Shown here piece after piece: positions 5,640 through 51,565 of a stretch of DNA of 64,000 nt. Where the stretch lies: the NCBI GenBank assembly GCA_017795005.1, contig CP051242.1, forward strand, positions 2,844,119-2,908,118. Direction: 5' to 3'. The notes under the pieces are model-generated. The model had not been told where the DNA came from, made no database searches, and saw only the letters and a list, made by a program, of their open reading frames with translations. Numbering within the stretch: position 1 is the stretch's first letter; every line of letters starts with the position of its first letter. Made by a program: the position numbers and the translations under genes. This DNA comes from Balneolaceae bacterium. GTDB taxonomy: Bacteria > Bacteroidota > Rhodothermia > Balneolales > Balneolaceae.

Positions 5640-5674
5640 ATATAATTTCCCGAGTGGACAGTTTAATTAAATCC

Positions 5675-33714: not shown

Positions 33715-34884
33715 ATGTCGACAGACCTACACACAGGCTTTGATGAGAATAAATACCCACACATAAACAAGGGACTAGATGGTATAGTAGCATTCTCGAC
33801 TACAAAAAGTTTTATAGACGGAGCTGTTGGAGAGCTGATATATAGTGGGTACAATATCGATACTCTTGCAGGTAATGCAACATTTGAAGAAGTATGTTTC
33901 CTGTTATGGAATGATCGGCTTCCTAATGCTGAAGAACTAAAAGAACTTGAAACAGCTTTAATTAAAGAAAGAAATATTCCGGAAGTAGTGCTTCATTATC
34001 TGGCTGAAACTGATAAAGAAGCTGAACCAATGGCTGTTCTTCAATCAGCGGTTTCTATGCTTGCTGATTTCGATCCAACAAAAGGTAAATTCGATAGTGA
34101 TCTTTTCATGGAACAAGCCATTGCATTAACCGCTAAAATTCCGACTATAATCGCTGCCTACGACCGTATCCGCCATGGTAAAGAAGTCGTTGCTCCACTT
34201 TCTGAAGGTAGTACAGCTCAAAACTTTTTATACATGCTGAACGGTGAAATGCCTGGTGATCATGCAGAGAAAACCATGGACTTATGCCTAATTTTGCATG
34301 CTGAGCATGGAATGAATGCATCTACTTTCACATGCCGTACAGTTTGTGCTACGATGAGTGATATGTATTCAGCAACTGCAGCAGCAATTGGCGCTTTAAA
34401 AGGACCTTTGCATGGAGGAGCAAACACTGCGGTTATGAATACTCTTCTTGAACTTGGAAAACAAAGAGAAGATGCAGATGCTGTCGCATTCACAAAGGCT
34501 AAACTGGAAAAGAAAGAAAAGATTATGGGATTCGGTCACCGTGTATATAAAACCTTTGATCCTCGTGGAAGACACCTCCAAAAAATGGCTAAAGCTCTTT
34601 CCGAAGAAACGGGACATGAAGAATTATACCGATGGTCAATGGATATGTTGAACACCATGAAATCAGAAAAGAATATTGACCCAAATGTTGACTTCTTTTC
34701 GGCTACCGTTTACTACTCCATCGGAATTCAACCTGATCTTTATACATGTATATTCACAATGAGTCGAATTTCCGGATGGACAGGTCACTTTATGGAACAG
34801 GCAGCAAATAACCGACTGATCAGACCAAGAGCACTGTATGTTGGAGAAAAAAATCTGGACTGGGTTCCTGTAGAAGAACGATAG
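33715..34884 (+). CDS. gltA: Citrate synthase
   Basis: 389-residue hexameric or dimeric citrate synthase that joins oxaloacetate and acetyl-CoA in the TCA cycle. The catalytic residues are visible: histidine in AEHGMNAST (about 197), histidine in GFGHRVYKTFDPR (about 272) and aspartate in NVDFFSATVY (about 323). The substrate loop PLHGGANTAVM is intact. AAAAGGA precedes the ATG. The gene is shorter than the E. coli hexamer type. Its C-terminus, ALYVGEKNLDWVPVEER, is repeated in diverged form twice downstream (37624 and 43091), which makes the region downstream of gltA a repeatedly used insertion zone. Confidence 0.95.
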   Translation: MSTDLHTGFDENKYPHINKGLDGIVAFSTTKSFIDGAVGELIYSGYNIDTLAGNATFEEVCFLLWNDRLPNAEELKELETALIKERNIPEVVLHYLAETDKEAEPMAVLQSAVSMLADFDPTKGKFDSDLFMEQAIALTAKIPTIIAAYDRIRHGKEVVAPLSEGSTAQNFLYMLNGEMPGDHAEKTMDLCLILHAEHGMNASTFTCRTVCATMSDMYSATAAAIGALKGPLHGGANTAVMNTLLELGKQREDADAVAFTKAKLEKKEKIMGFGHRVYKTFDPRGRHLQKMAKALSEETGHEELYRWSMDMLNTMKSEKNIDPNVDFFSATVYYSIGIQPDLYTCIFTMSRISGWTGHFMEQAANNRLIRPRALYVGEKNLDWVPVEER

Positions 34885-34907
34885 AATTTTATTCCTCATT
34901 TTTTGAA

Positions 34908-34935
34908 AGCTCAATCTACCGATTGGGCTCTTTTT
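34908..34935 (+). terminator. Intrinsic terminator of gltA
   Basis: AGCTCAATC pairs with GATTGGGCT (one G-T wobble) around a four-base loop, followed by CTTTTT. It starts 24 bp past the gltA stop. A related hairpin, with the same GAAA before the stem, follows the first leftover gltA end at 37698. Confidence 0.85.
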
Positions 34936-35150
34936 AAATAATTTTCTAAGTACGAGATGATGTTTGTCTTTAGTAAGAAATCATCTTTCTACATAATCTA
35001 GCTAACTATCCGATTGGAAGAATAAGTTGATAAAAAAGATATTTGACTAAACTTATACTTTTACTTTTTGTCCCGTTTTTGGAGATAAACTTATCGAATC
35101 TTGATACTTGGGAAGTTTTATTTGAAAATTATAAAACAGAATAAAATAGA

Positions 35151-36614
35151 TTGCTTTTTAATTCTTTTGACTTCGCAATATTTTTACCAATAGTATTTAT
35201 ACTCTATTGGTTCGTTGCAAACAATAACCTTAGAGTTCAGAATTTTTTAATAGTTGCTGCGAGCTATTTATTCTATGGTTGGTGGGATTGGAGATTTCTT
35301 TCTCTTATACTGTTTAGTACTTTAGTTGATTATTATGTTGGTAGAAACCTAAAATCTGAAACGAATCACAGGAAAAGAAAAATTCTTCTTTGGATAAGTA
35401 TTTTAGTAAACCTTGGGTTTTTAGGTTTCTTCAAATACTATAATTTTTTTCTTGATAATTTCATTGCTTCATTTGCTTTTTTTGGAGCAGAAATCAACGC
35501 AAAATCATTAGAGATTATCCTTCCTATTGGGATTAGTTTTTACACTTTTCAAACATTGAGTTACACTATCGATGTTTATAAACGAAAACTTGAGCCAACT
35601 AATGACTACATTGCTTTTTCAGCTTTTGTGAGTTTCTTTCCACAATTAGTAGCTGGACCTATAGAACGAGCAACCCACCTACTCCCTCAATTCTATAAAA
35701 AGCGGGTTTTTGACTATTCTAATGCCATTGATGGAATGCGTCAAATTCTTTGGGGTCTATTTAAAAAAATTGTAATCGCAGATAACTGTGCTGAATTTGC
35801 AAATCAAATATTCAATAACTCTACTGATCTGAATGGCAGTACCTTAGTGTTAGGTGCATTGTTTTTTACTTTTCAAATTTATGGTGACTTTTCTGGATAT
35901 TCGGATATCGCAATTGGTACGTCAAGGTTATTCGGATTTGACTTGATGCAAAACTTTAAGTTCCCTTACTTTTCACGAGACATTGCCGAATTTTGGAGAC
36001 GTTGGCATATTTCCCTTTCAACTTGGTTTAGGGATTACTTATATATTCCTTTAGGTGGTAGCCGTGGCGGAACATGGATGAAAATTAGAAACACTTTTAT
36101 CATCTTTATAGTTAGTGGTTTTTGGCATGGAGCAAATTGGACTTTTATTATATGGGGGGCTTTAAATGCTATTTATTTCTTGCCACTTTTATTGACAAAC
36201 AATAATCGTAAAAACTTAGAAATTGTTGCCAAAGGGAAGTATTTACCCAGTATAAAAGAATTTTCTTTTATACTACTTACATTTGGATTAACCGTATTTG
36301 CGTGGATATTTTTTAGAGCAGAAAGTATTGGACATGCCATTTCATATTTAAATAGTATTTTTTCAACTACACTATTCAACATGCCTGTAGAAGACTTGAA
36401 AAAATTCAATGTAGGTACCGAAATAGTATATACAGTATTGCTTGTAATAGGCTTTATTATAATTGAATGGGTTCAGCGTAATAAAAAACATGCTTTAGAG
36501 TTTACCCCTAATACTATATCTCCATTACTTCGATGGAGTATTTACTATGGGTTACTCTTATTGATTATTATTTTTAATGGGAATCAGCAGAACTTTATCT
36601 ATTTCCAATTTTAA
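35151..36614 (+). CDS. MBOAT-family O-acyltransferase (AlgI-like)
   Basis: 487 residues, about eleven membrane helices. MBOAT enzymes move acetyl or longer acyl groups from the cytosol to extracellular sugars. The start is a TTG, supported because the family begins MLFNSFDFAIFLPIVFILYW. Signature parts are FFPQLVAGPIERATHLLPQF, GDFSGYSDIAIGTSRLFGFD, IAEFWRRWHISLSTWFRDYLY and, with the catalytic histidine, GFWHGANWTFIIWG (about 326). The next gene 12 bp downstream is its likely SGNH-fold partner. Both are AT-rich and are bracketed by gltA 3' ends, so I read them as transferred. The acceptor, probably an exopolysaccharide, is unknown. Confidence 0.93.
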   Translation: MLFNSFDFAIFLPIVFILYWFVANNNLRVQNFLIVAASYLFYGWWDWRFLSLILFSTLVDYYVGRNLKSETNHRKRKILLWISILVNLGFLGFFKYYNFFLDNFIASFAFFGAEINAKSLEIILPIGISFYTFQTLSYTIDVYKRKLEPTNDYIAFSAFVSFFPQLVAGPIERATHLLPQFYKKRVFDYSNAIDGMRQILWGLFKKIVIADNCAEFANQIFNNSTDLNGSTLVLGALFFTFQIYGDFSGYSDIAIGTSRLFGFDLMQNFKFPYFSRDIAEFWRRWHISLSTWFRDYLYIPLGGSRGGTWMKIRNTFIIFIVSGFWHGANWTFIIWGALNAIYFLPLLLTNNNRKNLEIVAKGKYLPSIKEFSFILLTFGLTVFAWIFFRAESIGHAISYLNSIFSTTLFNMPVEDLKKFNVGTEIVYTVLLVIGFIIIEWVQRNKKHALEFTPNTISPLLRWSIYYGLLLLIIIFNGNQQNFIYFQF

Positions 36615-36626
36615 TATAACCTCAAT

Positions 36627-37568
36627 ATGAAATCCTTTATTTACCGTTTACTGATTTTCTCGTCTCCTGTAGTTATCTATATCTTAATAGCTGTTTATAT
36701 CGATCCCTATAATATTTTAAAAGAAGAGTCAAACCCTAATTTAATTGAGCTAAAATCTCAGATATCCTATAAAATCAATTATCCTCTCTTTAAGTTACAA
36801 GAGTTCTCAACCAATCCAACCGATATAATTTTATTAGGTGATTCTAGAACTGCTAAACTTAATCCAAAAGCGTTTGAGGACTTAACCGGTATGTCTGTAT
36901 CTAATTTAGCTTATGGTGGAGGAACATTACCAGAAGTAATTGATACATTTTGGTATACAACTAAAGTTCATAGTATTAAAAAAGTTTACATTGGTCTTAA
37001 CTTTAACTTGTATAATAAACTCAATAGTATGGACAGGGTGAATGAGGCAATCCGATTAAGAAATTCACCTTTTTCCTATTTATTCAGTCGATATTGCTTT
37101 AAGTCTGTTTACTCCATTTTAAAATCGTTAGTATCTAATACAACTATAAATATTGAAAAACCTAACTTTAGTAAAGATGAATTTTGGCAATATCAACTTC
37201 AGACTTCTGCTTCTAACTTTTACAAAAACTACCAATATCCAGAATCTTACTTTAAAGCCTTAGAAGAAATTTCAGACTACTGCTCATTAAATAATATTGA
37301 GCTAATATTTTTTATCCCACCTACACATACCGAGCTTCAACAAAAAGTGACAGAGTTCAAACTCAATAAGGCTGAGGATAAATTTAAAAGTGATCTTAAA
37401 CGTTTAGGACTTGTTTATGATTTCGATTATGAAAATAAAATGACCAAGAATAAAAATAATTTCTCGGATCCATTCCACTGTATTGATACCATTACTGACG
37501 TAGTAACTCGAGAGATAATAACTGGTAATACTACTTTTGCACGAACTTACAGTCCTACGAATGATTAA
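36627..37568 (+). CDS. SGNH-hydrolase-like partner of MBOAT acyltransferase (AlgJ/AlgX role)
   Basis: 313 residues with one N-terminal membrane anchor (RLLIFSSPVVIYILIAVYI) and a periplasmic domain. GDSRTAKLNP (about 70) carries the Block I GDS serine, and SDPFHCID (about 280) gives the Asp-x-x-His of Block V. Both fit the SGNH esterase/transferase plan used by AlgJ, AlgX or PatB to accept acyl groups from an MBOAT. Sequence similarity outside the motifs is low, so the assignment rests on motif order and neighbour. It ends 55 bp before a leftover gltA end. Confidence 0.75.
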   Translation: MKSFIYRLLIFSSPVVIYILIAVYIDPYNILKEESNPNLIELKSQISYKINYPLFKLQEFSTNPTDIILLGDSRTAKLNPKAFEDLTGMSVSNLAYGGGTLPEVIDTFWYTTKVHSIKKVYIGLNFNLYNKLNSMDRVNEAIRLRNSPFSYLFSRYCFKSVYSILKSLVSNTTINIEKPNFSKDEFWQYQLQTSASNFYKNYQYPESYFKALEEISDYCSLNNIELIFFIPPTHTELQQKVTEFKLNKAEDKFKSDLKRLGLVYDFDYENKMTKNKNNFSDPFHCIDTITDVVTREIITGNTTFARTYSPTND

Positions 37569-37623
37569 TGCCTAATTAGAATTATCTCTTAGTAAGTACT
37601 AAAAAAAAATACGCCACCTTACT

Positions 37624-37674
37624 TTGTATGTTGGCGAGAAAAATCTGGATTGGACTCCAATCGAAGAACGCTAA
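37624..37674 (+). pseudogene. Leftover 3' end of citrate synthase (remnant 1)
   Basis: Sixteen codons plus stop encode LYVGEKNLDWTPIEER, against LYVGEKNLDWVPVEER at the end of gltA. By hand, 40 of 51 bases agree. It has no start and no other part of the gene in front. The downstream hairpin 37698-37729 matches the position of the gltA terminator. Differences are mostly third-base, so this looks like the end of a diverged gltA allele. Confidence 0.9.
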
Positions 37675-37697
37675 GAATCTATCTTAACCTTATTTTG

Positions 37698-37729
37698 AAA
37701 AAGCCCAGTATTATAATTGGGCTTTTTTT
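37698..37729 (+). terminator. Intrinsic terminator after gltA remnant 1
   Basis: AAAAAGCCCA pairs with TGGGCTTTTT around GTATTATAAT, followed by a T run. It also lies just past the stop of the minus-strand regulator at 37739, so it may serve both directions. Confidence 0.85.
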
Positions 37730-37738
37730 ATTTAAGGG

Positions 37739-40318
37739 TCAAATTAATCCTTTTTCTTCGAGGGATTTTCTTAGCTCATTGTGATTCTTCCAGAACTGAT
37801 CTTCAATTTGCTGTACAACCAAATCAAATTCAGGATGTTTGGCGAGTGGTTTCATACCAGGGTCTTTATCCATGAACAACAGCACCCAATACTGGAAGTT
37901 TTCACGTGTAGCAAAAACCTTGAGTTGTTCAATAGCCAAATCATATTTCCCTTCATGGGCATACATTACTGCAGTACTGGCTTCCTTGTAAATTGATTGA
38001 TCTCTTTCACAATAGTCAGCATAGGATTCGAAATATTTTTCAGCTTCGTCTACCTTACCCACCTTTTCAAATGTTATTCCAATCTTAATATCTTCTTGAG
38101 GATACATATTCAGTCCAGCTGTCTCTCTGGCTATTGCAAATTTTTCAAAATAGAAATAAGCACTGTCGTAGTCTTCTTCAAAATAATATAGTTTGGCCAC
38201 ATCTTGTAGAATATCCAATCGTGTTACATCTTTGTTCCATTCTCGTAAAAGTTTCCTTCTTATTTCTTTTATATCCCGATTATGCGCATAGAGAACAAAA
38301 GCTTTCAAATGCGGCGCGTAATAATTATTCGAATCGTATTCCAACGATTCATTGATATAAACAAGCGCTTCATCAACAAAACCGGATTGTACAAAAGCAT
38401 TACTTAGACTCAAATAGAGATAACTTTTTGAAGTAGAGTCAATAGCCGCACTATTGATTTTATAGCTCGTCAAAGCGTACTCAAGATATTTAGCTGTATT
38501 TGGCATCACACCAGAATAAAACTCTGAGAGTGTTTGTAGTACAGCAAATGAATTCGGATTATAGTCCAACGCTTTCTCAAGATGTGGTAATGCTAACCGA
38601 TACTCCTCGGTATGCATGTAGTATAATGCCTTAGCTAAAAGACTTAGGTCTGACTTAGAATCATACAACAGCGCTTTATCAGCATAAGTATTGATTTCTT
38701 CGGTGTACCGTTTTTCAGCTTGGTGTAAATCCAGAAAGTAGTAGGAAATGGCAATGTCGGCATAAGCTAAAGAAAATTCAGGGTCGTATTCAATTGCCTG
38801 ATTTAATAACGAAATTCCTTTTTCTAGCCCTTCTGTACTTCTTGTAAAAAGTGGCTCACGGGATTGCAGATATAAATCGTAGGCTTCCAAGTTTTCTGTT
38901 GGCTTTTTCTCGATCTGTTCGAGTTCAGCGGGTGTAACAATTGCCTCAATCGCACTTGCGATTTTCGTAGCCACCTCTTTTTGTAAAGAGAAAATGTCAC
39001 CTACTTCTCTGGTATATTGTTCTGCCCATATGTGTTTATCACTTGAGGCTTCAATTAATTGGATATTGAGTAGAACCTGATCTCCAACCTTTTGACCACT
39101 TCCCTCAACAAAATAATTTACGTTGAGTTCATCTGCTATTTCGGGAATAGCTTTACTGGAATTTCTGTACTTCTCGACCGAAGTACGGCTAATAACTCGT
39201 AAATCTTCAATCTTCTGCAAATTGCCTAATGTCGATTCCATCAATCCATTAATGAAATAGACATTAGAGGAATCACTACTCTCATTTTTAAATGGCAATA
39301 CCGCAATTGATTTTTCGATCATTTCTGAATTTGATTCAGCCCTTGATACCTTGCTAAAGATGCCTGAATAATAACCTATGATGCCAAGTACAATTAGAAA
39401 AGTTGCTACTAATGACCACTTAATTAGTTGATTACCTACAACTTTATTTTTATCCGGGATCTCAACACCCCCAAGCTGATGATTGGATACTTCATATATT
39501 TCAATGGGCTTTGAAATGTTTTTCAGGGTATGAACACCTCTGGAAACCGTTAACAGTTCTGGCTGGTTCTTGACCTCATCGTATACCTTATCCGAGATAT
39601 ACACTGTACCTGCTTTGGCCATCGACTCAATCCGGGCAGCCACATTAACCCCGTCGCCAATTATTTCTTCATCAGTCGCAATAATATCGCCTGTATGTAC
39701 TCCAATCCGGATCGGAACCTGTGGCTCCTCTTTGAAGGCCAGCTGCATTTCGATCCCACATTGCACAGCTTCGATCGCACTTGAGAAAGTGCTTAAAGTA
39801 CCATCCCCATAGTATTGCAGAATACGTCCGTTATATTTTTTTGTGATAGAGTTGAAAACCTCGCGGTGCCTTTCCCTGAACATAATTCCTTTTTTCTCAT
39901 CCGACTGCATGAGTGAGGTATATCCCTCGATATCGGTAAACATAATCGCTACCAGTCGCCGCTGACGTGCTGAGGGTCCACCTGCTGAACCCGAAAAATC
40001 ATTTTTCCCAACTTCTCCTGGTGGATAACCATAGTGTTCTCGGAAGCATTTGATAAAATAGGATGAGCTACCAAAACCTACTTTATAGGAAACTTCTGAA
40101 ACAGTATATGACTCTTCTTTTAACAGATCCATAGCTATTTCGAGACGAACCTGACGAATGAATTTGCTGACTGAAAGGCTGGTATGCTTTTTTACTTTTC
40201 TGAGCAAATTAGAGCGACTCATATTCATCGCAGACGCTAATTCTGATACTCCGAATTGTTCATCATCGAGGTTCCCCTCAATGATGCTTGTAATTTGACT
40301 AATAAAGCCTTCTTCCAT
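37739..40318 (-). CDS. AraC-type HTH / class III adenylate cyclase / TPR fusion regulator
   Basis: 859 residues. Order: AraC-type DNA-binding helices (1-105, with LKEESYTVSEVSYKVGFGSS); a class III cyclase (about 120-285); one membrane helix (about 299-320, SLVATFLIVLGIIGYYSG); a periplasmic FlgO/TolB-N-like domain starting SIAVLPFKNESSD; and many TPR repeats to the end. The cyclase keeps the metal aspartates (Asp129 in FTDIEGYTS, Asp172 in YYGDGTLS) and the transition-state pair Asn225/Arg229 in GDGVNVAARIE, so it should be active. A DNA-binding head on a membrane cyclase is uncommon. Divergent from the ankyrin lipoprotein gene; two 11-bp direct repeats lie between. Confidence 0.88.
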   Translation of the reverse strand: MEEGFISQITSIIEGNLDDEQFGVSELASAMNMSRSNLLRKVKKHTSLSVSKFIRQVRLEIAMDLLKEESYTVSEVSYKVGFGSSSYFIKCFREHYGYPPGEVGKNDFSGSAGGPSARQRRLVAIMFTDIEGYTSLMQSDEKKGIMFRERHREVFNSITKKYNGRILQYYGDGTLSTFSSAIEAVQCGIEMQLAFKEEPQVPIRIGVHTGDIIATDEEIIGDGVNVAARIESMAKAGTVYISDKVYDEVKNQPELLTVSRGVHTLKNISKPIEIYEVSNHQLGGVEIPDKNKVVGNQLIKWSLVATFLIVLGIIGYYSGIFSKVSRAESNSEMIEKSIAVLPFKNESSDSSNVYFINGLMESTLGNLQKIEDLRVISRTSVEKYRNSSKAIPEIADELNVNYFVEGSGQKVGDQVLLNIQLIEASSDKHIWAEQYTREVGDIFSLQKEVATKIASAIEAIVTPAELEQIEKKPTENLEAYDLYLQSREPLFTRSTEGLEKGISLLNQAIEYDPEFSLAYADIAISYYFLDLHQAEKRYTEEINTYADKALLYDSKSDLSLLAKALYYMHTEEYRLALPHLEKALDYNPNSFAVLQTLSEFYSGVMPNTAKYLEYALTSYKINSAAIDSTSKSYLYLSLSNAFVQSGFVDEALVYINESLEYDSNNYYAPHLKAFVLYAHNRDIKEIRRKLLREWNKDVTRLDILQDVAKLYYFEEDYDSAYFYFEKFAIARETAGLNMYPQEDIKIGITFEKVGKVDEAEKYFESYADYCERDQSIYKEASTAVMYAHEGKYDLAIEQLKVFATRENFQYWVLLFMDKDPGMKPLAKHPEFDLVVQQIEDQFWKNHNELRKSLEEKGLI

Positions 40319-40424
40319 GCCTGGGAAGCTCTTGTTTAAGGTGAAATGAACTAGTTCAAGTTAGAAATTTTATAGACTTCTGAAAATCCTCTTTTTCATA
40401 CTCCTTCGAGATGTAAAGTTACGA

Positions 40425-40455
40425 CTTGCGTCATAATTTATACTCTTGCGTCATA
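40425..40455. promoter_or_regulatory. Pair of CTTGCGTCATA direct repeats; candidate AraC operator
   Basis: CTTGCGTCATA occurs at 40425-40435 and again at 40445-40455, exactly 20 bp apart (two helical turns), with the following bases also alike (ATTTAT / GTTTTT). AraC-family half-sites often have this spacing. The pair lies in the 256-bp gap between the regulator and the ankyrin lipoprotein gene, 107 bp upstream of one start and 120 bp upstream of the other. Confidence 0.55.
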
Positions 40456-40574
40456 GTTTTTATCCCTTCCTCAAAGTTGATGTATTTGGCTTCATGCCTG
40501 ATAGGTCTCATGCGAACACTTTTTTGATCTTTCCAGAGAAGAAAATCTCAACGAGAACTCAAAAAAACAGAACT

Positions 40575-41147
40575 ATGAAATATTTAAGTACGAACTCCTA
40601 TAAATCAATAGTTGCTATTATAATCCTTTTCGCAATAGCACCAGCATGTGCACGACAAAGTGATGAATCACAAACTATTTCCAAGAATAGCGCACCTGAA
40701 ATGGATATCCAGGCTGCAATAATTTCTGGCAATCTGGAAGTTGTAAAACAACATATAGATGCAGAAACTGATCTCAATAAGAAAGACCCTATAAGTGGCT
40801 CCTCTCCTTTAATAACAGCAGCCACTTTTGGGAAAATTGACATCGCGAAAACGTTAATCAATGCCGGAGCAGATCTTTCTGTAAAGAATAACGATGGATC
40901 AACCGCTCTGCATTCAGCGGCCTTTTTCTGCAGGATTGAAATAGTTCAATTGCTGATTGATGCCAATGTGGACAAAGACCAGCGTAATAACTTTGGTGTA
41001 ACAGCCCGCGAATCTGTTATGGGACCATTCGAACAGGCTCAACCCATCTACGCTATGATGCAAGAACAACTTGCTCCATTTGGATTACAGCTTGATATGG
41101 AAGAGCTGAAAAAAACACGTCCCGTAATTGCAATGATGTTACAATAA
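40575..41147 (+). CDS. Ankyrin-repeat lipoprotein
   Basis: 190 residues. The ATG at 40575 gives a clean lipoprotein signal (SIVAIIILFAIAPACARQ); an in-frame TTG 43 codons upstream is rejected. Three ankyrin repeats follow: IQAAIISGNLEVVKQHIDAE, SGSSPLITAATFGKIDIAK and DGSTALHSAAFFCRIEIVQL. A hydrophobic helix-rich tail (FEQAQPIYAMMQEQLAPFG, ending PVIAMMLQ) is not an ankyrin repeat. A diverged second copy of this tail lies downstream at 41861-41955. It may be a target of the divergent AraC-cyclase regulator, and its secretion suggests a periplasmic binding role. Confidence 0.85.
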   Translation: MKYLSTNSYKSIVAIIILFAIAPACARQSDESQTISKNSAPEMDIQAAIISGNLEVVKQHIDAETDLNKKDPISGSSPLITAATFGKIDIAKTLINAGADLSVKNNDGSTALHSAAFFCRIEIVQLLIDANVDKDQRNNFGVTARESVMGPFEQAQPIYAMMQEQLAPFGLQLDMEELKKTRPVIAMMLQ

Positions 41148-41171
41148 CAAAAACTCAAAATTAATACTCTC

Positions 41172-41819
41172 ATGAAAACTCTATTAACAATTCTTTTACT
41201 TCTTTGCGCGCATAGTGCTTATGCTCAAGTTAGCACTTCAATAGATAACGAAACTAAAGTAGCCCATTCTTGGCGGGTAAGTTTACCTTATATCGTTCCA
41301 GATGAGATCATCGATGGTTATGGAGAGCGAACAAGTATTCAAATGGTAGAATTACATGTAAAACGAAACCTCGATAATAAGAACATTGTAGGTGTGAAGT
41401 TTGCCACATGGCGATTATTTCAACCTATGGGAATCCTGTGGTGGCAAGGTCTCTTGGATAAGATGGAGTCAGGAAGTGACTATTACGATGGATACCTAAG
41501 AGAAACTGGAATTGGTATTTCCTATCAACGAATGCTGTGGAAAGGACTTTTTGCATCTGTTGAGGTACTACCACAGATACAAACATATACGGATTTAAAC
41601 GGCAATAAAATTAAGAATGGTTTTAAAGTTTATAATTCATATCACCTGGGGTATCATGTATCAATTGGGAAGAAAAAACGATTTTTCATAGAACCTCAAG
41701 TCCATGTTAATCAATGGTTTTTTGACAACAATTCACCTGAAGGGTTTAAAGAATTTGATGATAAATACGGAAACGTCTTTCTCTTCGAACCAAACATTTA
41801 CATAGGCTATAAATTTTAA
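41172..41819 (+). CDS. Secreted hypothetical protein, possibly outer-membrane
   Basis: 215 residues with a signal peptide (LLTILLLLCAHSAYAQ). The rest is beta-rich with aromatic-alternating strands (ISYQRMLWKGLFASVEVLPQ, YHLGYHVSIGKKKRFFIEPQ) and ends YIGYKF, with a terminal phenylalanine, as in small outer-membrane barrels. No conserved domain is recognised. Its upstream flank (ankyrin 3' end plus leader) is repeated in degenerate form right after its stop, so it appears to have been inserted into that junction. Confidence 0.65.
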   Translation: MKTLLTILLLLCAHSAYAQVSTSIDNETKVAHSWRVSLPYIVPDEIIDGYGERTSIQMVELHVKRNLDNKNIVGVKFATWRLFQPMGILWWQGLLDKMESGSDYYDGYLRETGIGISYQRMLWKGLFASVEVLPQIQTYTDLNGNKIKNGFKVYNSYHLGYHVSIGKKKRFFIEPQVHVNQWFFDNNSPEGFKEFDDKYGNVFLFEPNIYIGYKF

Positions 41820-41860
41820 GCTCTAGTCTGATAAGTCACGATGGCGTTATGGTAGAATAT

Positions 41861-41955
41861 TTTGGATAAGGCTCGACATTGAAGAGCTGGAAAAAACACC
41901 CTGTAATTACCATGACATCGCGGTAACAATAATTAAAAATACATCCCCATGAAAA
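41861..41955 (+). pseudogene. Degenerate copy of ankyrin gene 3' end and leader
   Basis: From about 41861 (TTTGGATAAGGCTC...) and clearly from 41881 (GAAGAGCTGGAAAAAACAC), this sequence follows the ankyrin gene's 3' end at 41100 (GAAGAGCTGAAAAAAACAC). The match continues across the stop codon into the leader and up to CATGAAAACT, which starts the next gene in both places (41170 and 41948). A few deletions break the frame. Confidence 0.75.
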
Positions 41956-43064
41956 CTACACGAAGATACGATATTGATTGGCTGAGGGTAATTGCAATCT
42001 GGTTATTGCTAATTTACCACATCGCAATCGTTTTCCAACCCTGGGCCATGTTTTTTGGGTTCATCAAAAGTAATGAACTGCTAGTGAATCTTTGGAAACC
42101 AATGACTATGCTAAATGTCTGGAGGATTCCGATTTTATTCTATGTGTCTGGTATGGGGGTGTATTTTGCAATTATGAAAAGAAACTGGAAACAGTTATTG
42201 CTGGAACGTTCAAAAAGAATTCTGTTGCCTTTTATATTCGGTTTCTTTGCTATTACACCTCTTCATATGTTTATTTTTCAGGCTTACTATGAAATGCCTT
42301 TAGGATACTTCCCGCATGCAGGACACTTGTGGTTCCTTGGAAATATATTCTGCTACGTACTGTTAGCATCTCCTTTATTTTTTTATTTGAAGAGAAATAC
42401 ACGTAGCCGATTCAAGAAAGGATTAACTGGCTTAATGAGACATCCATTAGGACCTTTATCGATTACAGTCTTTTTTGTGATTGAAGTTTTAATAGTTAAA
42501 CCAAGTCTATTTGAATTATATGCCGAAACATTGCATGGATTTTTCCTAGGGTTACTAGCCTTTATATTTGGATTTCTTTTCGTATATGCAGGAAAAATTT
42601 TCTGGCAAACAGTGAAGAAATGGAGATGGCTGTATATAGGATTAGCTGCAATTTAATATACCCTTCGATTAACTATACTCGAAACAACACCTTTATCTTA
42701 CCTCACAGCTATCGAGTCAAATCTTTGGATTTTTGGACTCTTTGGAATAGGATACAAGTACTTGAACCGACCAAGCTCTGCTTTAAGTTACCTTAGTCAA
42801 GCTGCTTATCCGGTTTACATTATTCATATGTTTGTTCTTTATGTAGGATCCTTTTTAATTCTGCCTTTAGAAATACCTGTACTGTTGAAATTTATTTTTG
42901 TGGTAGCCTTTACCATAATTATGTGCTATTTGATTTATGAGATCCTTATCAAACGAACCGGATTATTTAAATCACTTTTTGGTCTCAATTGGAAAGCTGG
43001 TGCTGCTTCAGCTAATAACCAGGTGGAAACAATACATCTAAATCGTAATAATAGCAGGAATTAG
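41949..43064 (+). pseudogene. Acyltransferase-3 family gene, interrupted by one in-frame stop
   Basis: A membrane acyltransferase-3 (OatA/NodX-like) of 371 codons is cut at 42654-42656 by TAA. The reading frame stays open on both sides: upstream RRYDIDWLRVIAIWLLLIYHI with the usual Asp and His (residues 9-24), HAGHLWFLGNIF; downstream NRPSSALSYLSQAAYPVYII and the final helix to 43064. One base change of a sense codon explains the break, without any frameshift. A truncated 235-residue product is therefore made unless read-through occurs. The gene is the last in its block; its stop is directly followed by the second gltA remnant. Confidence 0.85.
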
Positions 43065-43066
43065 AT

Positions 43067-43141
43067 AACAGACTGATCAGACCACGAGCTCTGTGTTTTG
43101 GTGAGAAGAATCTGGATTGGACTCCAATAGAAAGTCGCTAA
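43067..43141 (+). pseudogene. Leftover 3' end of citrate synthase (remnant 2)
   Basis: 24 codons plus stop encode NRLIRPRAL then CFGEKNLDWTPIESR, against NRLIRPRAL then YVGEKNLDWVPVEER in gltA. It starts two bases after the acyltransferase pseudogene. By hand, it agrees better with remnant 1 (42 of 51 shared bases) than remnant 1 does with gltA (40 of 51). The stop is followed by TTAGCGG with no clear terminator. Confidence 0.9.
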
Positions 43142-43159: not shown

Positions 43160-46066
43160 TTAGTTTGTCGCCCAGGTTTTCATTTCAGATGGGATGAATC
43201 GTAATTCAAACTTTGCACCATTTTCTGATTTCCAGTTTATCCTTCCATTTAATTGATCCGCTAAATTGAAGATGAGGCTCATACCCAATGAACCTTCTTT
43301 CATTTTCTCGAAACCTTCAGGAAGTCCGATACCAGTATCTTTAACTGTAAATACTACTTCCTCTCCTTCTTTAATCACTTTCAGATTAATTGACCCGGAT
43401 TTATCCTCTGGAAATGCATATTTAAAAGCATTTGTAATTAATTCATTAGCCAGGATTCCGAAAGGTACAGCCTGATTAACATTGAGTGTAATCTCATCTC
43501 CTTCAAGAGAAATAGTGGTGTTCTTACCGTTTTGTTTAAATGTCCTTTTAATATCTCCAAGAAGATCATTCAAATAAGATTTCACTTCTATGCTCGTAAA
43601 TAAATCGTTCTGATAAAGCTTCTCATGAATGGTAGCAATAGATTTTATTCGCGCCTGAGACTCATTAAAAATTTGTACAACCTTTTCATCATCTATACTT
43701 AAGGCTTGAAGAGCAAATAACCCCGAAACTACAGCCAGATTATTTTTTACACGATGATGAATCTCTTTAATAAGTACTTCTTTTTCTTTTAGAGATAATT
43801 CGAGCCGCTTTTGATATTCCAAAATGTGAGTTATATCTGTAGCTGTTCCTGAACAGCCAATTATTTCACCATCGGCATTTCTTAGAGGATAAGCCTTCGC
43901 AGAAAGAAAAGTATGTCGTCCATCTTTTTTAATCATTGTAAGGTCAAAGTGGTCAAAACTTTCTCCATGAATAACATCCGTATGTATTTGGACTGTTTCT
44001 TCAACATTATCTGGAGCTACATGGGGTACAAAAGAAGCCCCAATTAATTCTTCGGGTTTATAACCAAGAATATCATAGCTGGCATTATTCATAAAGTTGA
44101 AATTCCCTTCTTTATCAATTCTCCAAATCAAATCCCTAGACGCTTCAACCAGATTACGATACTTCCTTTCGCTACTTACTAATGCAAGCTCTACGTTTTT
44201 TTGCTCAGAAATATCTTCAATCAAAATCATAAGCTTTTGAACTTTACCCGAATCATCTTTGATCGGAGTAATATATTCACGAAGAACTATGGATTTCCCT
44301 TCCCGATTATGACGGTTTATTTCTACTAGTTTTGTCTTTTCATTTTTAAAAACCTCATTTATGTACCCAATGGCCTCTTTTTTGTTATCACCCTTGGCAT
44401 AAGGCAAAAAGCTTCCTGTTACTTCTTCTTTTTTCCAACCAAATATAACTTCACATTGATGATTCCATACATCCAGTACAATTCCTTCTGAATCAACGGT
44501 AAAAACTCCAATAGGAGCTCCATCAATTAAGGCCGACAAAACAGTATTGGTTTCAATCAATTCCTGTTCATACTTAACCTTTTCAGTAACATCATTGATC
44601 AATACAAGTCGGGTCTTCTTACCACTTAATTCGATCCTTTTCCAATGTACATCTACATTAATCAGGCTTCCGTCTTTTTTGAAATGCCTACTTCGGGAAA
44701 CGGTATTGCCAAGTTTATCAGATAAATCAAGACCTTTAATTATATCCTCATACTTCACGAGGTCTTCTTTTGGTCTTAGATCCAGTGAAGACATCCCAAC
44801 AAACTCATTATTACTATATCCATATAGCGCTTCTGCTGCTTTATTAACTCCGGAAATTAATTCAGAACCGTCATCTTCTATAAGCATTAATGGATTTGGA
44901 TTGTTTTCAAAAAGGAAGCGGTACCTTTGTTCTCTTTTTTCTCTGTCTATTTCTTCTTCTTTCTCTTTCGTAATGTCTCTTAGAGAACCATATAGTTTTA
45001 CTGTTTTGTTATTAATCACAAACGGATCAAATGTTACCCGAACCCATTTTTTTGTTCCTTTAGCACCAATAAATCGAAGTTTCAGATCTTTGGAATTGAA
45101 ATTTTTGATACAATCTTGAATAGCTTCTCTTAGAATGGGTTGATCATCAGGATGATAAAATTCTATTGTTTTGTCTCCTGATTTCTCAATCTGATCATCC
45201 AGTTCATATATCTCAAAAACCATCGGGCTCCCCTTAAAAGTATCATTCGCAATGATATACTCCCACCCACCAACTCCTGCGCTCTTACTTGTTTGCTCTA
45301 AAAATGATTTATTAAGCAGAAGATCAGAGACATCCTGAATGGTTGTAATTACAAAAACTTCACCGTTTATCTTTTCAATAGTAGAAGAAGTCATAACTAC
45401 TACATAAGAACCATCCTTCTTTACTTCGGTGAACTGTTTGGGTTCACCTCTCCCAACTTCAATGAATTCTTTATACGCTTCTTCTTCTTTAGATTCATTT
45501 TCAGATGGGGTAACAATTGACAGATTCTGACCTAATAATTCTTCTTCTTCATATCCCAATATTTCGCAATATCTTTTGTTTGCACTAATAATTTTCCGGT
45601 TTCCATCAGAAATCCTTACTCCAAGCATGGAATTGAAGAGTGCATTTAAAAAAATTTCGTTCTTTTCTTTTTCTTTTCTTTCCTGATATGCTTCAATTTC
45701 CCTTTTTATGGCAGGAACAAGTCTGGTTAAGTTATCTTTTAGTACATAATCTTTTGCACCAAGTAAAACCGCATCAATGGCCATTTCATCAGGAACTGTA
45801 CCAGATACGAGAATTAATGGAATATCCATTCCCTTCTCTTTCAAAAACTCAATTATATCTATGCCAGTGAACCCCGGAAGACTATAATCTGAAATAATGA
45901 TATCAAATTGTTGTTCGTTAAGAAGAGCATCAATTTCCTGAATGGAATCAACAACATAAGATTGATGCTCGTAGCCTCCATTTCTAATCTCTCTGCTTAG
46001 AAGCTCAGCATCAAGAGGATTATCCTCTATAAATAAAATATTAAGCGTTCGCATTAGGTTACTCAC
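43160..46066 (-). CDS. Response regulator / multi-PAS sensor histidine kinase (HisKA_2 type)
   Basis: 968-residue cytosolic hybrid with an N-terminal receiver (phosphoacceptor Asp60 in DIIISDYSLPG, lysine in KDYVLKDN), about five PAS domains (for example SVSGNRKIISANKRYCEILG; the last, before the kinase, with NFMNNASYDILGYKPEELIG) and a HisKA_2/HATPase module. The phosphorylated histidine lies in IKEIHHRVKNNLAVVSG near 770, and the ATP site has GILANELITNAFKY and VKDTGIGLPEG. No membrane helix is present, so the signal is internal: redox, light or small molecule. No DNA-binding response regulator is nearby. It is transcribed towards remnant 2 and 19 bp from it. Confidence 0.9.
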   Translation of the reverse strand: MSNLMRTLNILFIEDNPLDAELLSREIRNGGYEHQSYVVDSIQEIDALLNEQQFDIIISDYSLPGFTGIDIIEFLKEKGMDIPLILVSGTVPDEMAIDAVLLGAKDYVLKDNLTRLVPAIKREIEAYQERKEKEKNEIFLNALFNSMLGVRISDGNRKIISANKRYCEILGYEEEELLGQNLSIVTPSENESKEEEAYKEFIEVGRGEPKQFTEVKKDGSYVVVMTSSTIEKINGEVFVITTIQDVSDLLLNKSFLEQTSKSAGVGGWEYIIANDTFKGSPMVFEIYELDDQIEKSGDKTIEFYHPDDQPILREAIQDCIKNFNSKDLKLRFIGAKGTKKWVRVTFDPFVINNKTVKLYGSLRDITKEKEEEIDREKREQRYRFLFENNPNPLMLIEDDGSELISGVNKAAEALYGYSNNEFVGMSSLDLRPKEDLVKYEDIIKGLDLSDKLGNTVSRSRHFKKDGSLINVDVHWKRIELSGKKTRLVLINDVTEKVKYEQELIETNTVLSALIDGAPIGVFTVDSEGIVLDVWNHQCEVIFGWKKEEVTGSFLPYAKGDNKKEAIGYINEVFKNEKTKLVEINRHNREGKSIVLREYITPIKDDSGKVQKLMILIEDISEQKNVELALVSSERKYRNLVEASRDLIWRIDKEGNFNFMNNASYDILGYKPEELIGASFVPHVAPDNVEETVQIHTDVIHGESFDHFDLTMIKKDGRHTFLSAKAYPLRNADGEIIGCSGTATDITHILEYQKRLELSLKEKEVLIKEIHHRVKNNLAVVSGLFALQALSIDDEKVVQIFNESQARIKSIATIHEKLYQNDLFTSIEVKSYLNDLLGDIKRTFKQNGKNTTISLEGDEITLNVNQAVPFGILANELITNAFKYAFPEDKSGSINLKVIKEGEEVVFTVKDTGIGLPEGFEKMKEGSLGMSLIFNLADQLNGRINWKSENGAKFELRFIPSEMKTWATN

Positions 46067-46206: not shown

Positions 46207-48738
46207 TCATTTTACTACTAAATTTACAATTCGGCCCGGTACAAAGATCTCCTTCACTAGATTCCCTTCCAATAAGTATTTAGCAACGTTCTCTTCACCT
46301 TTAGCCATGTCTAGTACAAAGTCTTTGTCTTTAGCCTTGTTAGCTGGTACGTAAATATCGGCACGTACTTTTCCGTTCACCTGAACTGGATACATAATTT
46401 CATCTGCCTTCAGGTATTCTTCATTGAACTCCGGCCATTTTGTATAAGCGATTGAATCTGCTTCTCCAAGTTTACTCCAAAGTTCTTCCGCTAAATGAGG
46501 TGCATAAGGAGAAAGCAACTGCACAAACGGCTTTGCGATTGAAACCGGCACCGTATCCCACTGATTAGCTTCATTCACAAAAATCATCATTGCTGAAATG
46601 GCGGTATTAAATCTCATTTCTTCAATGTCTTCTGTTACTTTTTTAATAGCTTCATGAAGCACTTTTAATTGATCTTTAGAAGCTTCCATTTCCTTTACTT
46701 CAGTCTTTAAATCACCTGATCCTTCTTCAATCAGCAATCTCCACACACGGTTCAGGAATCGATTTACACCATCCACCCCTTTTGTACTCCAGGGTTTAAC
46801 TTGTTCCAAGGGGCCCATAAACATTTCATATAATCGAAGTGAATCAGCACCAAACTGTTCGATCACATTATCGGGATTGATCACATTTCCGCGGCTTTTA
46901 CTCATTTTATATGCTCTGGCTTCCACTTTTTTACCTGAGGCTTTTTCCACAAAATGATCTCCTTTTTTCTCTACTTCTTCTTCCGAAAGTTTTCTTCCAT
47001 CTTCAGAAGTATATTCCATCTCACCGAGAATCATCCCTTGGTTTACGAGCTTTTTAAAAGGTTCTTTAGTTGAAACCACTCCAAGATCAAACAATACTTT
47101 ATGCCAAAAACGGGCATATAACAAGTGAAGTACTGCATGCTCTGCTCCACCCACGTATAAATCCACAGGCATCCAGTATCTTTCATAGTCAGGGTTAACC
47201 GGACCTCCATCCCAATCCGGTGAAATATATCTCAGATAGTACCAGCAGGAACCTGCCCACTGAGGCATGGTATTAGTTTCCCGTAACGCAGATTTCCCGG
47301 TTTCGGGATCATTGGTATTCACCCAATCAGTAGCGTTTGCAAGTGGTGGTTCACCATCACCTGTCGGCTGATATTTATCCACTTGCGGAAGCTCCAACGG
47401 AAGCTCACTTTCTAAAACAGCTTTAGCTTCTCCATCCACATGAATAATAGGAAAAGGTTCACCCCAGTACCGTTGACGCGAGAACAACCAGTCTCTCAAT
47501 TTATAATTCACGGCTTTGGTTCCGGCTCCCTTCTCTTCCAGCCATGCAATAATTTTCTTTTTCGCCGGTGCAATATCCAGTCCATTCAGAAAGTCGCTGT
47601 TAATCGCGACTCCTTCCCCGGTATAAGCTTTTCCTTCAAAACCTTCTTCAGGTTGTACAGTTCGTATAATTGAAAGATCAAATTTCTCTGCAAATTCCCA
47701 GTCACGCTCGTCCTGACCCGGAACCGCCATAATAGCACCGGTTCCGTAACTCACCAATACATAGTCAGCTATCCAGATCGGAATCTCTTTTCCATTCGCC
47801 GGGTTGATGGCGTAAGCACCTGTAAAGACTCCTGTTTTCTCTTTATTGAGTTCCTGACGATCTAAATCCGATTTTAACGAGGCGGCTGACTGATATTCTC
47901 CAACGGTATCTTTCTGCTCATCTGTTGTTATTTCAGAAACCAAGTGATGTTCAGGGGCTATTACCATATAAGTGGCTCCAAAAATGGTATCCGGTCTGGT
48001 AGTGTACACCCGAAGTTTCTCATCAGTTCCGGAAATAGCGAAATCGATCTCAGCTCCAACGGATTTACCAATCCAGTTTCTTTGCATGTCTTTCAAAGAT
48101 TCCGGCCAATCCAAATCATCCAAATCCTGTAATAATCGCTCAGCATATTCCGTGATTTTTAACACCCATTGGCGCATAGGTTTTCTGATAACCGGAAATC
48201 CACCTACTTCACTTTTACCGTCAATCACTTCTTCGTTGGCCAATACTGTTCCCAGCTCCGGACACCAGTTCACGGCTACTTCATCTTCATAGGCCAGACC
48301 TTTATGGAAGAGCTGAAGGAAAATCCACTGCGTCCATTTGAAATAGTTTGGATCCGTCGTATTCACTTCCCTGTCCCAGTCGTAGCTGAAACCTATTGCC
48401 TGAAGTTGCTCTCTGAAACGATTGATATTTTTTTCGGTAGTGATTTTAGGATGTGTTCCCGTTTTAACGGCATATTGCTCAGCCGGTAATCCAAAAGCAT
48501 CCCATCCAATTGGGTGAAGCACATTAAATCCGTTCATTCTTTTATACCGGGCAATGATATCTGTTGCTGTGTAGCCTTCCGGGTGCCCTACGTGTAATCC
48601 AGCTCCACTTGGATACGGAAACATATCCAGTACATAATATTTTGGTTTGGAGGTATCGGTAGGTGTTTTAAAGGTTTTATTTTCGAGCCAGTACTTTTGC
48701 CATTTGGACTCTATTTCCGCCGGATTGTAAGAATGCAT
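46207..48738 (-). CDS. leuS: Leucyl-tRNA synthetase
   Basis: 843-residue class I synthetase charging tRNA-Leu. The ATP-binding HIGH motif is [12 protein letters not shown] (about 51), the editing (CP1) domain has [19 protein letters not shown] and the [15 protein letters not shown] loop with its aspartate, and KMSKSRGN (about 611) is the KMSKS loop. The tail has [14 protein letters not shown]. Length is usual for bacterial LeuS. A 140-bp gap upstream of the histidine kinase contains only AT-rich sequence, with TTATATATATTCTAAC repeats. Confidence 0.97.
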
Positions 48739-48821: not shown

Positions 48822-49817
48822 ATGCGGATTTTGATTAAATTTGGTTTTATTTTACTTACTCTATGCACGTTATTTTCCTTTACTACTCAAGCTCAAAGCT
48901 CAACTGAACAGGATTCTGGATGGGTGAAAATTTATACAAATATTCCTGAGTTTTACTTAATAATTGATGATGATTTTAGGAATGCAACGATACAACATCC
49001 CGAGGATAGTATTAAACTAACGATTGGTCATCACAAAATCAGACTAGCAGGTAATAACGTTCCTGATAAACAATACAATGTCAGAATCTTTGCAAATAAA
49101 ACTACGACAAAAAATATTGTATTTACTTTTCGAAATAGAAATCCTGATACTTCTTATCCGATATTAGTAAACAGATTAAATTTTAGTATAAATACTGACC
49201 CGGGATCTGTGATCTACATTGATGGACAAGAGGTTGGAGTCGGTGGAGCTACATTATTTTTAAATCCTGGGTATCATACATTTAAGGCAATACACCCGGA
49301 ATTCGGAGCGCTTACTAAAAAAATAAAAGTAGACTACACTTCATTTGGCACGATATCCAGATATAACCAAAATCCTTATCCAAATAGACAATATATGAGA
49401 TTTGTTCCTGGACTCGGCTATCTGTTAAATGGACAATACGGAAAAGCAGGTATTACCTATGCTGCATTAATTGCACTCTCTTATTATGGGATTTCGGTTC
49501 AGAATGAATACAATGAAAAAGAAAAATTATATCAAGAGAAGTTTTTTAATTATGAATCATCTACGAACTATATAGATGCCCTTCGTTTCCGAAGAGAAAC
49601 ACTTGAAATTCAGGATGAAATGGAAATGCTTAACCAAAAAATAACATATACTGCAATCGGTATAAGCTCATTGTATCTAATTACAACAATTGATGGGTTT
49701 TTAAAACCAAGGCAAGGGTATAAAAAAGAATCAGATAATCGACCAATGGTAAATTTTACCGCTTTTTCATATTCAGGTAAGTTTTACCCAAGCCTTTCTT
49801 TAACTAAGAGGTTTTAA
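48822..49817 (+). CDS. PEGA-domain secreted membrane protein, cluster member 1
   Basis: 331 residues: signal peptide ending near TTQAQSS; two N-terminal beta segments (VKIYTNIPEFYLIIDDDFRN); a PEGA domain (about 130-180) with SINTDPGSVIYIDGQEVGVG and LFLNPGYHTFKAIHPEFG; then a C-terminal part with FVPGLGYLLNGQYGKAGITYA and a hydrophobic helix pair separated by a charged coil (KEKLYQEKFF). PEGA domains fold like a surface-layer-associated beta sandwich. The last part resembles the DUF5683 group. The gene overlaps the next one by abutment (49817/49818). Two relatives follow at 50566 and 53881. Confidence 0.75.
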   Translation: MRILIKFGFILLTLCTLFSFTTQAQSSTEQDSGWVKIYTNIPEFYLIIDDDFRNATIQHPEDSIKLTIGHHKIRLAGNNVPDKQYNVRIFANKTTTKNIVFTFRNRNPDTSYPILVNRLNFSINTDPGSVIYIDGQEVGVGGATLFLNPGYHTFKAIHPEFGALTKKIKVDYTSFGTISRYNQNPYPNRQYMRFVPGLGYLLNGQYGKAGITYAALIALSYYGISVQNEYNEKEKLYQEKFFNYESSTNYIDALRFRRETLEIQDEMEMLNQKITYTAIGISSLYLITTIDGFLKPRQGYKKESDNRPMVNFTAFSYSGKFYPSLSLTKRF

Positions 49818-50285
49818 ATGGTGCGACTAACATATTCATATTTCTTTCTGGTGATTTTTTGGAGTTGCAATGAAGTTCCTCAATTTACGTCTACAAATTT
49901 AAATGATCCTTTCAGAAAAGGATTTATACCTCCTATACCTCAGGAGTTAGAAACAGATGTAAATAATCCAAATACCAATTATTATGAAATTCGTTTATCA
50001 TGGAGAATGCCTCTTAATTTGAAAGCAGGTATAAGTGGGTTTGTAATTTACAAATCCAATGAATCATACGATCAGCTTTATTTATTAAATGAACCTGAAA
50101 TAAGATCTTGGGACAATATTTATTATTATGATGAAGTATTTACTCCAGAGGATTCACTTGACTATTATTTTAAAGTTCAGTCATATTTTATTCAGGAATT
50201 AGATACTGTTTATTCAGAACCTGTTTTTGCTAATCTTGTAGATTGGGAATATTTTTGTCGTTTTTGTCCAACAAAAAATGAGTAA
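49818..50285 (+). CDS. Small Fn3-like lipoprotein
   Basis: 155 residues with a lipobox (FLVIFWSCNE). The body has a fibronectin-III-like beta pattern, with SWRMPLNLKAGISGFVIYKSNE and SLDYYFKVQSYFIQELDTVYS, similar to modules in the 728-residue lipoprotein at 51566. A proline-rich segment (GFIPPIPQELETD) sits after the lipid anchor. It begins at the base after the preceding gene's stop, so the two are co-translated. It is followed by a 280-bp gap with no gene and only scattered AT-rich sequence. Confidence 0.7.
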   Translation: MVRLTYSYFFLVIFWSCNEVPQFTSTNLNDPFRKGFIPPIPQELETDVNNPNTNYYEIRLSWRMPLNLKAGISGFVIYKSNESYDQLYLLNEPEIRSWDNIYYYDEVFTPEDSLDYYFKVQSYFIQELDTVYSEPVFANLVDWEYFCRFCPTKNE

Positions 50286-50565
50286 CTCATTATAAATTAT
50301 TTTTATTGTTTCTTAACTATTTCAGTTCCAACTCTAACCCAGTATTTTTATAGTAAGTAATCCTCAATAAATCAGTTTAAATTTTCTGAAAGTTATTTTG
50401 AATTCATTATTAAACGAATAAATAGTTCCGATGCTTATGTAATTGATACTTCACTGATATAAATTATATTTTCGATATTACCCTTTGCTATAACCAAAAT
50501 AATATTAGCTGGGTTGCTGACAGCATTACGTATGCTGACGATGTCCCTTTAAAAAAGCTTTAAAT

Positions 50566-51564
50566 ATGGCATATAAACGAGTTAGAACTTGTCTTTTTAT
50601 TTTTCTTGCGACCCTATTTATTCGACCTTTTATTTTTGCTCAAGAAATAGGCTTTGTTAAATTTGACCTAAATGTAGACTCGGTTTCCATTATCATAAAC
50701 AATGATTTTAATGGAGTCCGAACCATCTCAACTGAAGATTCGATTAGTCTTGGTAAAGGACTAAATCTTGTAAACTTATCTGTTCCTTTCGATAGATTTT
50801 ATGAAGTTTATGTACAAATAATCCCTGGAAAAACTAAGGTTGTAAGTCATGAATTTTCTGAGAAAATCCCTTCTAAATATATTCTGGAAAGAAATTATGC
50901 AGCAGCACGATATTACAATGTAAATGCATTTATTATAACAGACAGCGACTCAAAAATTACAGTTGGTAATTCCACCCTGGGAGTTGGTTTCGCGAAGTTT
51001 ACTCAAAAGATTGGGCTCTATTCGATTTTAATTGAGAACGAAGATTTTGGAACTTCTAGCATTAATTATTTAAATAACGACAGATATTACATTACTCTTT
51101 TTGAAAAGTATACCCGTCCGGAAAAACCAACTGCTCAATTCCTGAGTATTATTCCCGGTGGTAGCCAATTTTATAAAAAACAGATTGGGAAAAGTGCACT
51201 TTTCTTTTCAGGAACTACTGTGTTCTTTGGTGTGGGGATTTCAGCCAATAATTCATATAAGAAGGAGCTACAAACATTCAATGAATTAAAAGAACAGTAT
51301 AATAATACAGAAAACGAAAGTCTCGCGTTTGAATTAGGAAATCAGGTTGAAAAACAACAAAAAGAAGTCCGGAGAAAAGATAATATGAGACGTGCTTTTT
51401 TTGGTTTGGGCATACTAAGTTATTCACTAAATATTTTTGATGCTTTCAAAAGTACACCTGATGGTGGATATAGAAAAGAACAGCCGATTGAGTTTTATCT
51501 TACTAATAATCAAGAAACTTTGGGAAGTGCATCAGTTTCTATGAGATATAATTTTAAGAATTGA
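50566..51564 (+). CDS. PEGA-type secreted membrane protein, cluster member 2
   Basis: 332 residues, signal peptide near RPFIFAQE. It is a diverged relative of the first PEGA protein: its beta domain has KITVGNSTLGVGFAKFTQ instead of the usual YIDGxxVG, and its C-terminal part has FLSIIPGGSQFYKKQIGKSA and a charged coil (KEQYNNTENESLAFELGNQ) between hydrophobic segments. The final residues form an NFKN tail. It lies one base before the big lipoprotein gene, an identical arrangement to the first pair. Confidence 0.7.
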   Translation: MAYKRVRTCLFIFLATLFIRPFIFAQEIGFVKFDLNVDSVSIIINNDFNGVRTISTEDSISLGKGLNLVNLSVPFDRFYEVYVQIIPGKTKVVSHEFSEKIPSKYILERNYAAARYYNVNAFIITDSDSKITVGNSTLGVGFAKFTQKIGLYSILIENEDFGTSSINYLNNDRYYITLFEKYTRPEKPTAQFLSIIPGGSQFYKKQIGKSALFFSGTTVFFGVGISANNSYKKELQTFNELKEQYNNTENESLAFELGNQVEKQQKEVRRKDNMRRAFFGLGILSYSLNIFDAFKSTPDGGYRKEQPIEFYLTNNQETLGSASVSMRYNFKN

Positions 51565-51565
51565 T

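Follow-up and report, generated by a model that had tools for sequence, protein, structure and literature searches.

Stranded gltA 3' ends as probable traces of integrase-free insertions between gltA and leuS in a Balneolaceae bacterium

Introduction

Integrative elements that insert at the 3' ends of genes, such as e14 and phage 21 at icd, supply the interrupted gene with a replacement 3' end carried by the incoming DNA. At rhs loci that have undergone C-terminal displacement, the intact gene is followed by cargo and then by left-over 3' fragments of differing length, each of which begins with conserved core sequence; homologous recombination through a circular intermediate was proposed to account for them (Jackson et al. 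2009, PMC2935791). In the T6SS effector-immunity modules of V. cholerae, serial arrivals push older genes and the effector 3' end downstream, and homology-facilitated illegitimate recombination (HFIR) was proposed for these modules (Kirchberger et al. 2017, PMC5361080). For restriction-modification genes, insertion with long target duplication was described (Nobusato et al. 2000, cited in PMC3031569), and inter-chromatid integration producing duplications has been documented in pneumococcus (PMC3784515).

Here we analyzed a stretch of 64,000 nucleotides (the window; contig positions 2844119-2908118) from a Balneolaceae bacterium that has Balneolaceae MAGs, Balneola, and Gracilimonas as its closest named relatives. 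In this window, the 3' end of gltA, the citrate synthase gene, is found three times around two blocks of other genes. The locus is similar to each of the described systems in part. As at rhs, the intact gene is followed by stranded 3' fragments that differ in length, being 51 nt and about 78 nt in the window and 302 nt in G091, a member of another genus. However, rhs swaps non-homologous tips, whereas gltA encodes a housekeeping enzyme with interchangeable ends and only the cargo changes. Because all attached and stranded gltA ends are homologous, we describe the case as resembling rhs displacement in the way it works and do not file it as a member. The V. cholerae modules are alike in their serial arrivals but are anchored in T6SS genes under immunity selection, whereas the gltA cargo consists of unrelated acyltransferases, a regulator, and a secreted protein. 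As the account cited above presents it, insertion with long target duplication likewise produces transposase-less gene blocks, on either side of which host sequence stands as long and variable direct repeats. Those repeats copy the host target, whereas the first stranded gltA end (remnant 1) is a diverged, formerly functional end and a poor fit to a copy of the recipient's own target (P about 0.002-0.004). The replacement of a 3' end by incoming DNA is shared with integrative elements, but the gltA cargo contains no recombinase (the nearest tyrosine recombinase gene is more than 700 kb away), breakpoints differ, which leaves no fixed core for the crossover, and the pattern is found at several genes unrelated to one another. 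An integrase of the integron type (IntI) is likewise lacking in the cargo of the window.

Results

The live gltA gene (33715-34884, plus strand; Pfam Citrate_synt, 8e-123) is the one full copy in the source genome, which is a single 3.75-Mb contig. Its last 16 codons and stop codon occupy 34834-34884 and are followed by a terminator that extends to about 34940. The original prediction, made from the window alone, held that this end recurs as two start-less copies, and both the coordinates and the peptides proved to be correct. Remnant 1 is a stranded 3' end of 51 nt (37624-37674) that codes LYVGEKNLDWTPIEER followed by a stop and that, together with its terminator, spans 37624-37730 on the plus strand. 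Remnant 2 (43064-43141, plus strand) is a stranded 3' end of about 26 codons that adjoins a histidine kinase gene; its 16-codon part (43091-43141) codes LCFGEKNLDWTPIESR followed by a stop. We scanned the regions 3' of gltA in 61 loci with a profile, taking reversed sequences as the null; the two remnants scored 53 and 67, far above the values on reversed sequences (21.5 at most). The similarity of remnant 2 to gltA, earlier traced back to 43067, reaches about 43064 and possibly 43055. Remnant 1 was also predicted to keep a related terminator and, as expected, its alignment with gltA runs on through the terminator (106 columns at 74.5%). This terminator is homologous to the one 3' of live gltA in a relative, G002, and it matches the G002 terminator, not that of the window's live gltA.

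Block 1, between the live gene and remnant 1, consists of an MBOAT O-acyltransferase gene (35151-36614, plus strand; Pfam MBOAT, 1.4e-29) and an SGNH-like partner (36627-37568, plus strand). Block 2, between the two remnants, contains an AraC-type regulator gene with Pfam HTH_18, adenylate-cyclase, and TPR domains (37739-40318, minus strand; 90% protein identity to its G002 counterpart), an ankyrin-repeat lipoprotein gene (40446-41147, plus strand; Pfam Ank_2, 1.9e-17) that probably starts at an internal ATG at 40576, a gene for a secreted protein (41172-41819, plus strand), and a broken Acyl_transf_3 acyltransferase gene (41949-43064, plus strand) that is present as two ORFs, 41949-42656 and 42762-43064. 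The acyltransferase gene is broken by a stop codon at 42654-42656, and G002 has an intact copy of 370 aa. Pfam upheld the labels first given to the MBOAT, regulator, ankyrin, and stop-split acyltransferase genes, but the SGNH label has a GDS motif only, with no Pfam or NCBIfam match to the protein. The SGNH-like gene was found in its own genome only, with no match in any of 88 further family genomes; no donor with a gltA-MBOAT-SGNH order was found among these 88 genomes, and the junctions of block 1 are thus unreadable. The right flank of the variable interval is a PAS/HisKA_2 histidine kinase gene (43160-46066, minus strand), beyond which lies leuS (46207-48738, minus strand), the convergent partner of gltA. 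A second variable interval, an array of secreted-protein and lipoprotein genes that differs in content between relatives, extends from leuS to a LuxC-like gene (48822-54768). Elsewhere in the window, four tandem paralogues of about 380-410 aa lie on the minus strand at 2019-6910, with patches of 69-84% DNA identity.

We compared this arrangement with that of relatives. In many genera gltA and leuS converge on each other with 0-300 bp between them, and this adjacency is a common simple state across the family; a histidine kinase gene usually separates the two in the genus of the window and in the next genus. Support had been expected from relatives in which gltA directly precedes the histidine kinase gene or in which other cargo lies between gltA ends, and states of the predicted kind were seen. 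In G001 and G005 the histidine kinase gene follows gltA directly, with gaps of 41 and 12 bp, and the order gltA, histidine kinase, leuS is also found in others. In G002, block 2 is present without block 1, in the order gltA, block 2, a beta-lactamase-like hydrolase gene, histidine kinase, leuS, and the gltA-leuS intervals of other genera hold 2-9 kb of unrelated cargo. The order in the window is gltA, block 1, remnant 1, block 2, remnant 2, histidine kinase, leuS, and the match between the window and G002 is unbroken from the tail of remnant 1 and its terminator through block 2 (86.4% over 5455 columns). Remnant 2 is missing in G002, where the resemblance is limited to a few bases around the old stop. 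Because gltA adjoins the histidine kinase gene in G001 and G005, remnant 2 lies at the old place of a gltA end and marks the older gltA-kinase junction. Similarly, because the G002 terminator is homologous to that of remnant 1 and the match to G002 is unbroken, remnant 1, in front of block 2 like the gltA of G002, marks the gltA-block 2 junction and is the gltA end that belongs to block 2.

Four-fold-site identity between the window and G002 was 35% for gltA, 37% for leuS, 39% for the kinase gene, and 40-45% for four further flanking genes, and the divergence of the histidine kinase gene from that of G002 is thus core-like. In block 2 it was 71% for the regulator, 64% for the ankyrin gene, 61% for the secreted-protein gene, and 66% for the acyltransferase gene. 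Because identity at these sites is so much higher in block 2 (61-71%) than in the flanking genes (35-45%), the comparison shows that block 2 passed horizontally between the two lineages after their split and that the flanks did not.

We then asked where the stranded gltA ends diverged. Of the 17 codons compared between remnant 1 and the live end, 9 differ (7 synonymous and 2 nonsynonymous changes), and there is no indel. Under a null of a host-end copy decaying neutrally (two-branch simulation), about 6 nonsynonymous codons were expected, and the probability of 2 or fewer was about 0.002-0.004. Because its changes relative to the live end are mostly silent, remnant 1 diverged inside a functional gltA and not as a decaying target copy. 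Between remnants 1 and 2 there are 4 synonymous and 3 nonsynonymous codon differences, with which a target duplication would also be compatible for the older event. The TPI ending of remnant 1 is shared by remnant 2, which has three radical changes besides, consistent with an older stranding. In raw differences over 51 nt the remnants are nearest each other (9), and all ten live ends compared are at least 11 away. The live tail of the window is closest to that of G002 (7 of 51 positions differ), with remnant 1 at 11 and remnant 2 at 14. A tree of the 3' ends, which had been proposed as a further check, did place both remnants with the live end of G001, but with a support of 38-41% on tails of 51-75 nt. 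No ancestry switch was visible near the 3' end of the window's gltA, where silent sites are nearly saturated.

A third stranded end, overlooked in the original prediction, lies within block 2. A copy of the 3' end of the ankyrin gene with a leader (41860-41957, plus strand) is located directly before the acyltransferase gene, with a local alignment score of 89 against 42 for the best of 1000 shuffles. G002 carries the same copy in decayed form (78 against a null maximum of 44). In G038 and G045 the acyltransferase gene follows the ankyrin gene directly, with no secreted-protein gene between them, and therefore the secreted-protein gene was inserted at this place in the window, stranding the ankyrin 3' end. 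The ankyrin end is stranded by the same kind of event as the gltA ends, at the arrival of the secreted-protein gene.

Similar cases were found elsewhere. In G091, a repeat made up of the final 302 nt of gltA plus about 60 nt downstream flanks ~3.7 kb of cargo on both sides, at 99% identity. This was the only further gltA remnant when 60 other family loci were scanned, and a set of 80 named loci, with flanks of up to 10 kb, gave gltA remnants only in the same G091 contig. Within 7 kb behind gltA in G091 (L055), the same type of cargo lies to either side of the repeat, namely small Cys-rich secreted peptides, 6-bladed beta-propeller lipoproteins (DUF5128), and thioredoxin-like or LuxR-type genes. 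In G035, three copies of the 3' end of the LuxC-like gene were found: one belongs to the gene itself, a second follows an inserted vapBC pair, and a third, joined to a vapC 3' end, precedes leuS (L052, reverse-strand coordinates 4016-5936 and 13342-13456). These cases show that the stranded-end pattern is not specific to gltA: in the window it occurs at the ankyrin gene as well, and in other genera at LuxC and gltA. In the 1.6 Mb of the source genome (G000) that was scanned, two clear further cases were found. At C1:159551-163033 (L099/L100), genes for a C5 DNA methyltransferase and a probable endonuclease of 350 aa lie behind a SAM hydroxide adenosyltransferase gene, the last 68 nt of which recur beyond this cargo with 100% identity. 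At C1:878272-880248, a RAYT/Y1 transposase gene with REP-like palindromes follows a Rieske-type gene, and the last 51 nt of the Rieske-type gene together with 60 nt downstream recur at 84%. Three stranded ends in 8.3 kb against two clear ones in 1.6 Mb make a strong local cluster, although this region was picked post hoc. At 5' ends, comparable cases were few and in part paralogue arrays, numbers too small for a claim of asymmetry.

Several further 3' matches were dropped as ordinary paralogues sharing C-terminal domains or as intergenic elements repeated after stop codons (L051, L044, L054), and a weak match of 51 nt at 1428171-1428221 of the source genome (E 5.6e-5) was left uncounted. One intergenic element in G034 (L051, reverse-strand coordinates 4203-4972) is about 50 nt long and is repeated behind several genes at up to 98% identity.

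No recombinase gene was found in the cargo or neighbourhood in the intervals of the window, G002, or G091, in agreement with the earlier remark that the window's cargo has no integrase; the four tyrosine recombinase genes of the source genome are all more than 700 kb from the gltA locus. In G023 (L042), a gene for a XerC/D-like tyrosine recombinase is present 108-951 bp after gltA on the minus strand, and there was no repeat of the gltA end at its far side. A search of viral contigs gave no gltA relatives, using N-terminal peptide patterns that would miss tails. The gene ends involved (gltA, ankyrin, and LuxC) have no common sequence. Homologues of comEC and dprA are present in the source genome, a weak pointer given that E. 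coli also matches.

Discussion

The best explanation of these data is that the gltA-leuS interval is a hotspot of integrase-free insertion whose insertions left fossils. Because the gene ends share no sequence, the breakpoints vary, and no recombinase lies nearby, we favour recombination anchored in a conserved gene. Repeated homology-anchored recombination without an integrase, with a second junction that was non-homologous or came from a circular donor, is in our judgement the probable cause. DNA from a related bacterium, bearing a gltA 3' end and other genes, would enter by transformation or another route and would recombine by homology within gltA or the shared flank. Its other end might then join without long homology, by HFIR, possibly between sister chromatids; alternatively, both junctions might be homologous and the donor circular (Campbell type). 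Either route would leave the order gene, cargo, stranded 3' end, old neighbour. Short stranded ends would persist as the complete gene still functions and short repeats seldom recombine away. The remnants and the synteny point to gltA as the anchor, the crossover itself not being visible in gltA with its near-saturated silent sites. Published HFIR cases are mostly insertion-deletions and not duplications, which counts against this explanation.

The original prediction of repeated arrivals at the gltA 3' end is borne out by the ordered states of relatives, by the exchange of block 2, and by the divergence of remnant 1 within a functional gltA. What did not hold is the view of the gltA 3' end as a special attachment site: the same architecture is seen at the ankyrin and LuxC-like genes, and the breakpoints lie 16 codons, about 26 codons, or 302 nt from the stop. 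Because this architecture recurs at other, unrelated gene ends with different breakpoints, an excised integrase, left as an option in the prediction, is also unlikely.

Our confidence applies to homology-anchored, integrase-free recombination as a whole and overlaps with that in its mirror version, a variant of direction within it. In the mirror version, the resident gltA end is native and the remnants were carried in with the downstream blocks (a donor gltA tail with block 2), the left junction being non-homologous. The closeness of the window's live tail to that of G002 (7 of 51, against 11 and 14 for the remnants) speaks for it, as does a remnant 1 terminator common to the pool of block 2 donors; but 7 against 11 differences in 51 nt is within noise, and the mirror version alone leaves the arrival of the MBOAT gene and its partner unexplained, so we regard it as possible but doubtful. 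If cargo had instead been inserted with long target duplication, the host's own gene end would have been copied and the copy would have decayed. A textbook-like case, the C5 methyltransferase and probable endonuclease with their perfect repeat of 68 nt, stands in the same genome; the G091 repeat at 99% also speaks for it, and the comparison of remnants 2 and 1 is compatible with it. Remnant 1, with mostly silent changes, no coding sense lost (P about 0.002-0.004), and a terminator of the G002 type and not the live type, argues against it, and target duplication is disfavoured for this remnant; for the locus we consider it unlikely. More than one route may have acted in the source genome, as perfect or near-perfect repeats (the 68 nt, and that of G091) also fit insertion with long target duplication.

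Site-specific integration, in which the gltA 3' end served as attB for lost or degraded integrative elements that brought a replacement end as prophages do at icd, would account for the architecture and for the silent divergence of the ends, which are such as e14 and phage 21 leave, and a tyrosine recombinase gene does lie beside gltA in G023. Yet the far end in G023 has no gltA repeat, the window, G002, and G091 intervals have no recombinase, the breakpoints differ as given above, the ankyrin and LuxC ends follow the same pattern with no common sequence, and viral contigs gave no gltA relative in an N-terminal peptide scan blind to tails; we therefore give site-specific integration little credence. 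Tandem duplication of gltA or its 3' part, with the duplicate bodies later replaced by other genes, would be expected to give 3' fragments in the same orientation, as observed. However, none of 92 family genomes has a second full gltA of this subfamily at the locus, the simple states of gltA beside the histidine kinase gene or beside block 2 exist, and the same partial loss would be needed several times, making tandem duplication highly improbable.

One may speculate further that in Balneolaceae conserved genes next to variable intervals (gltA on one side of leuS and LuxC on the other) offer their 3' ends as portable homology anchors. Units of a gene end with its cargo would then pass between species and pile up in the manner of integron cassettes, with no recombinase other than general homologous recombination. 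We think this improbable.

Gene acquisition outside integrase islands mostly leaves no visible mark, and stranded 3' ends are a readable trace of it. They show the anchor gene and the order of arrival and, by silent as against changed codons, whether an end came from a functional gene or from a copied target. A scan for stranded ends can be used on any set of genomes to gauge how frequent integrase-free insertion is and what cargo it brings. Displacement, which is known for toxin loci, would thereby extend to housekeeping genes.
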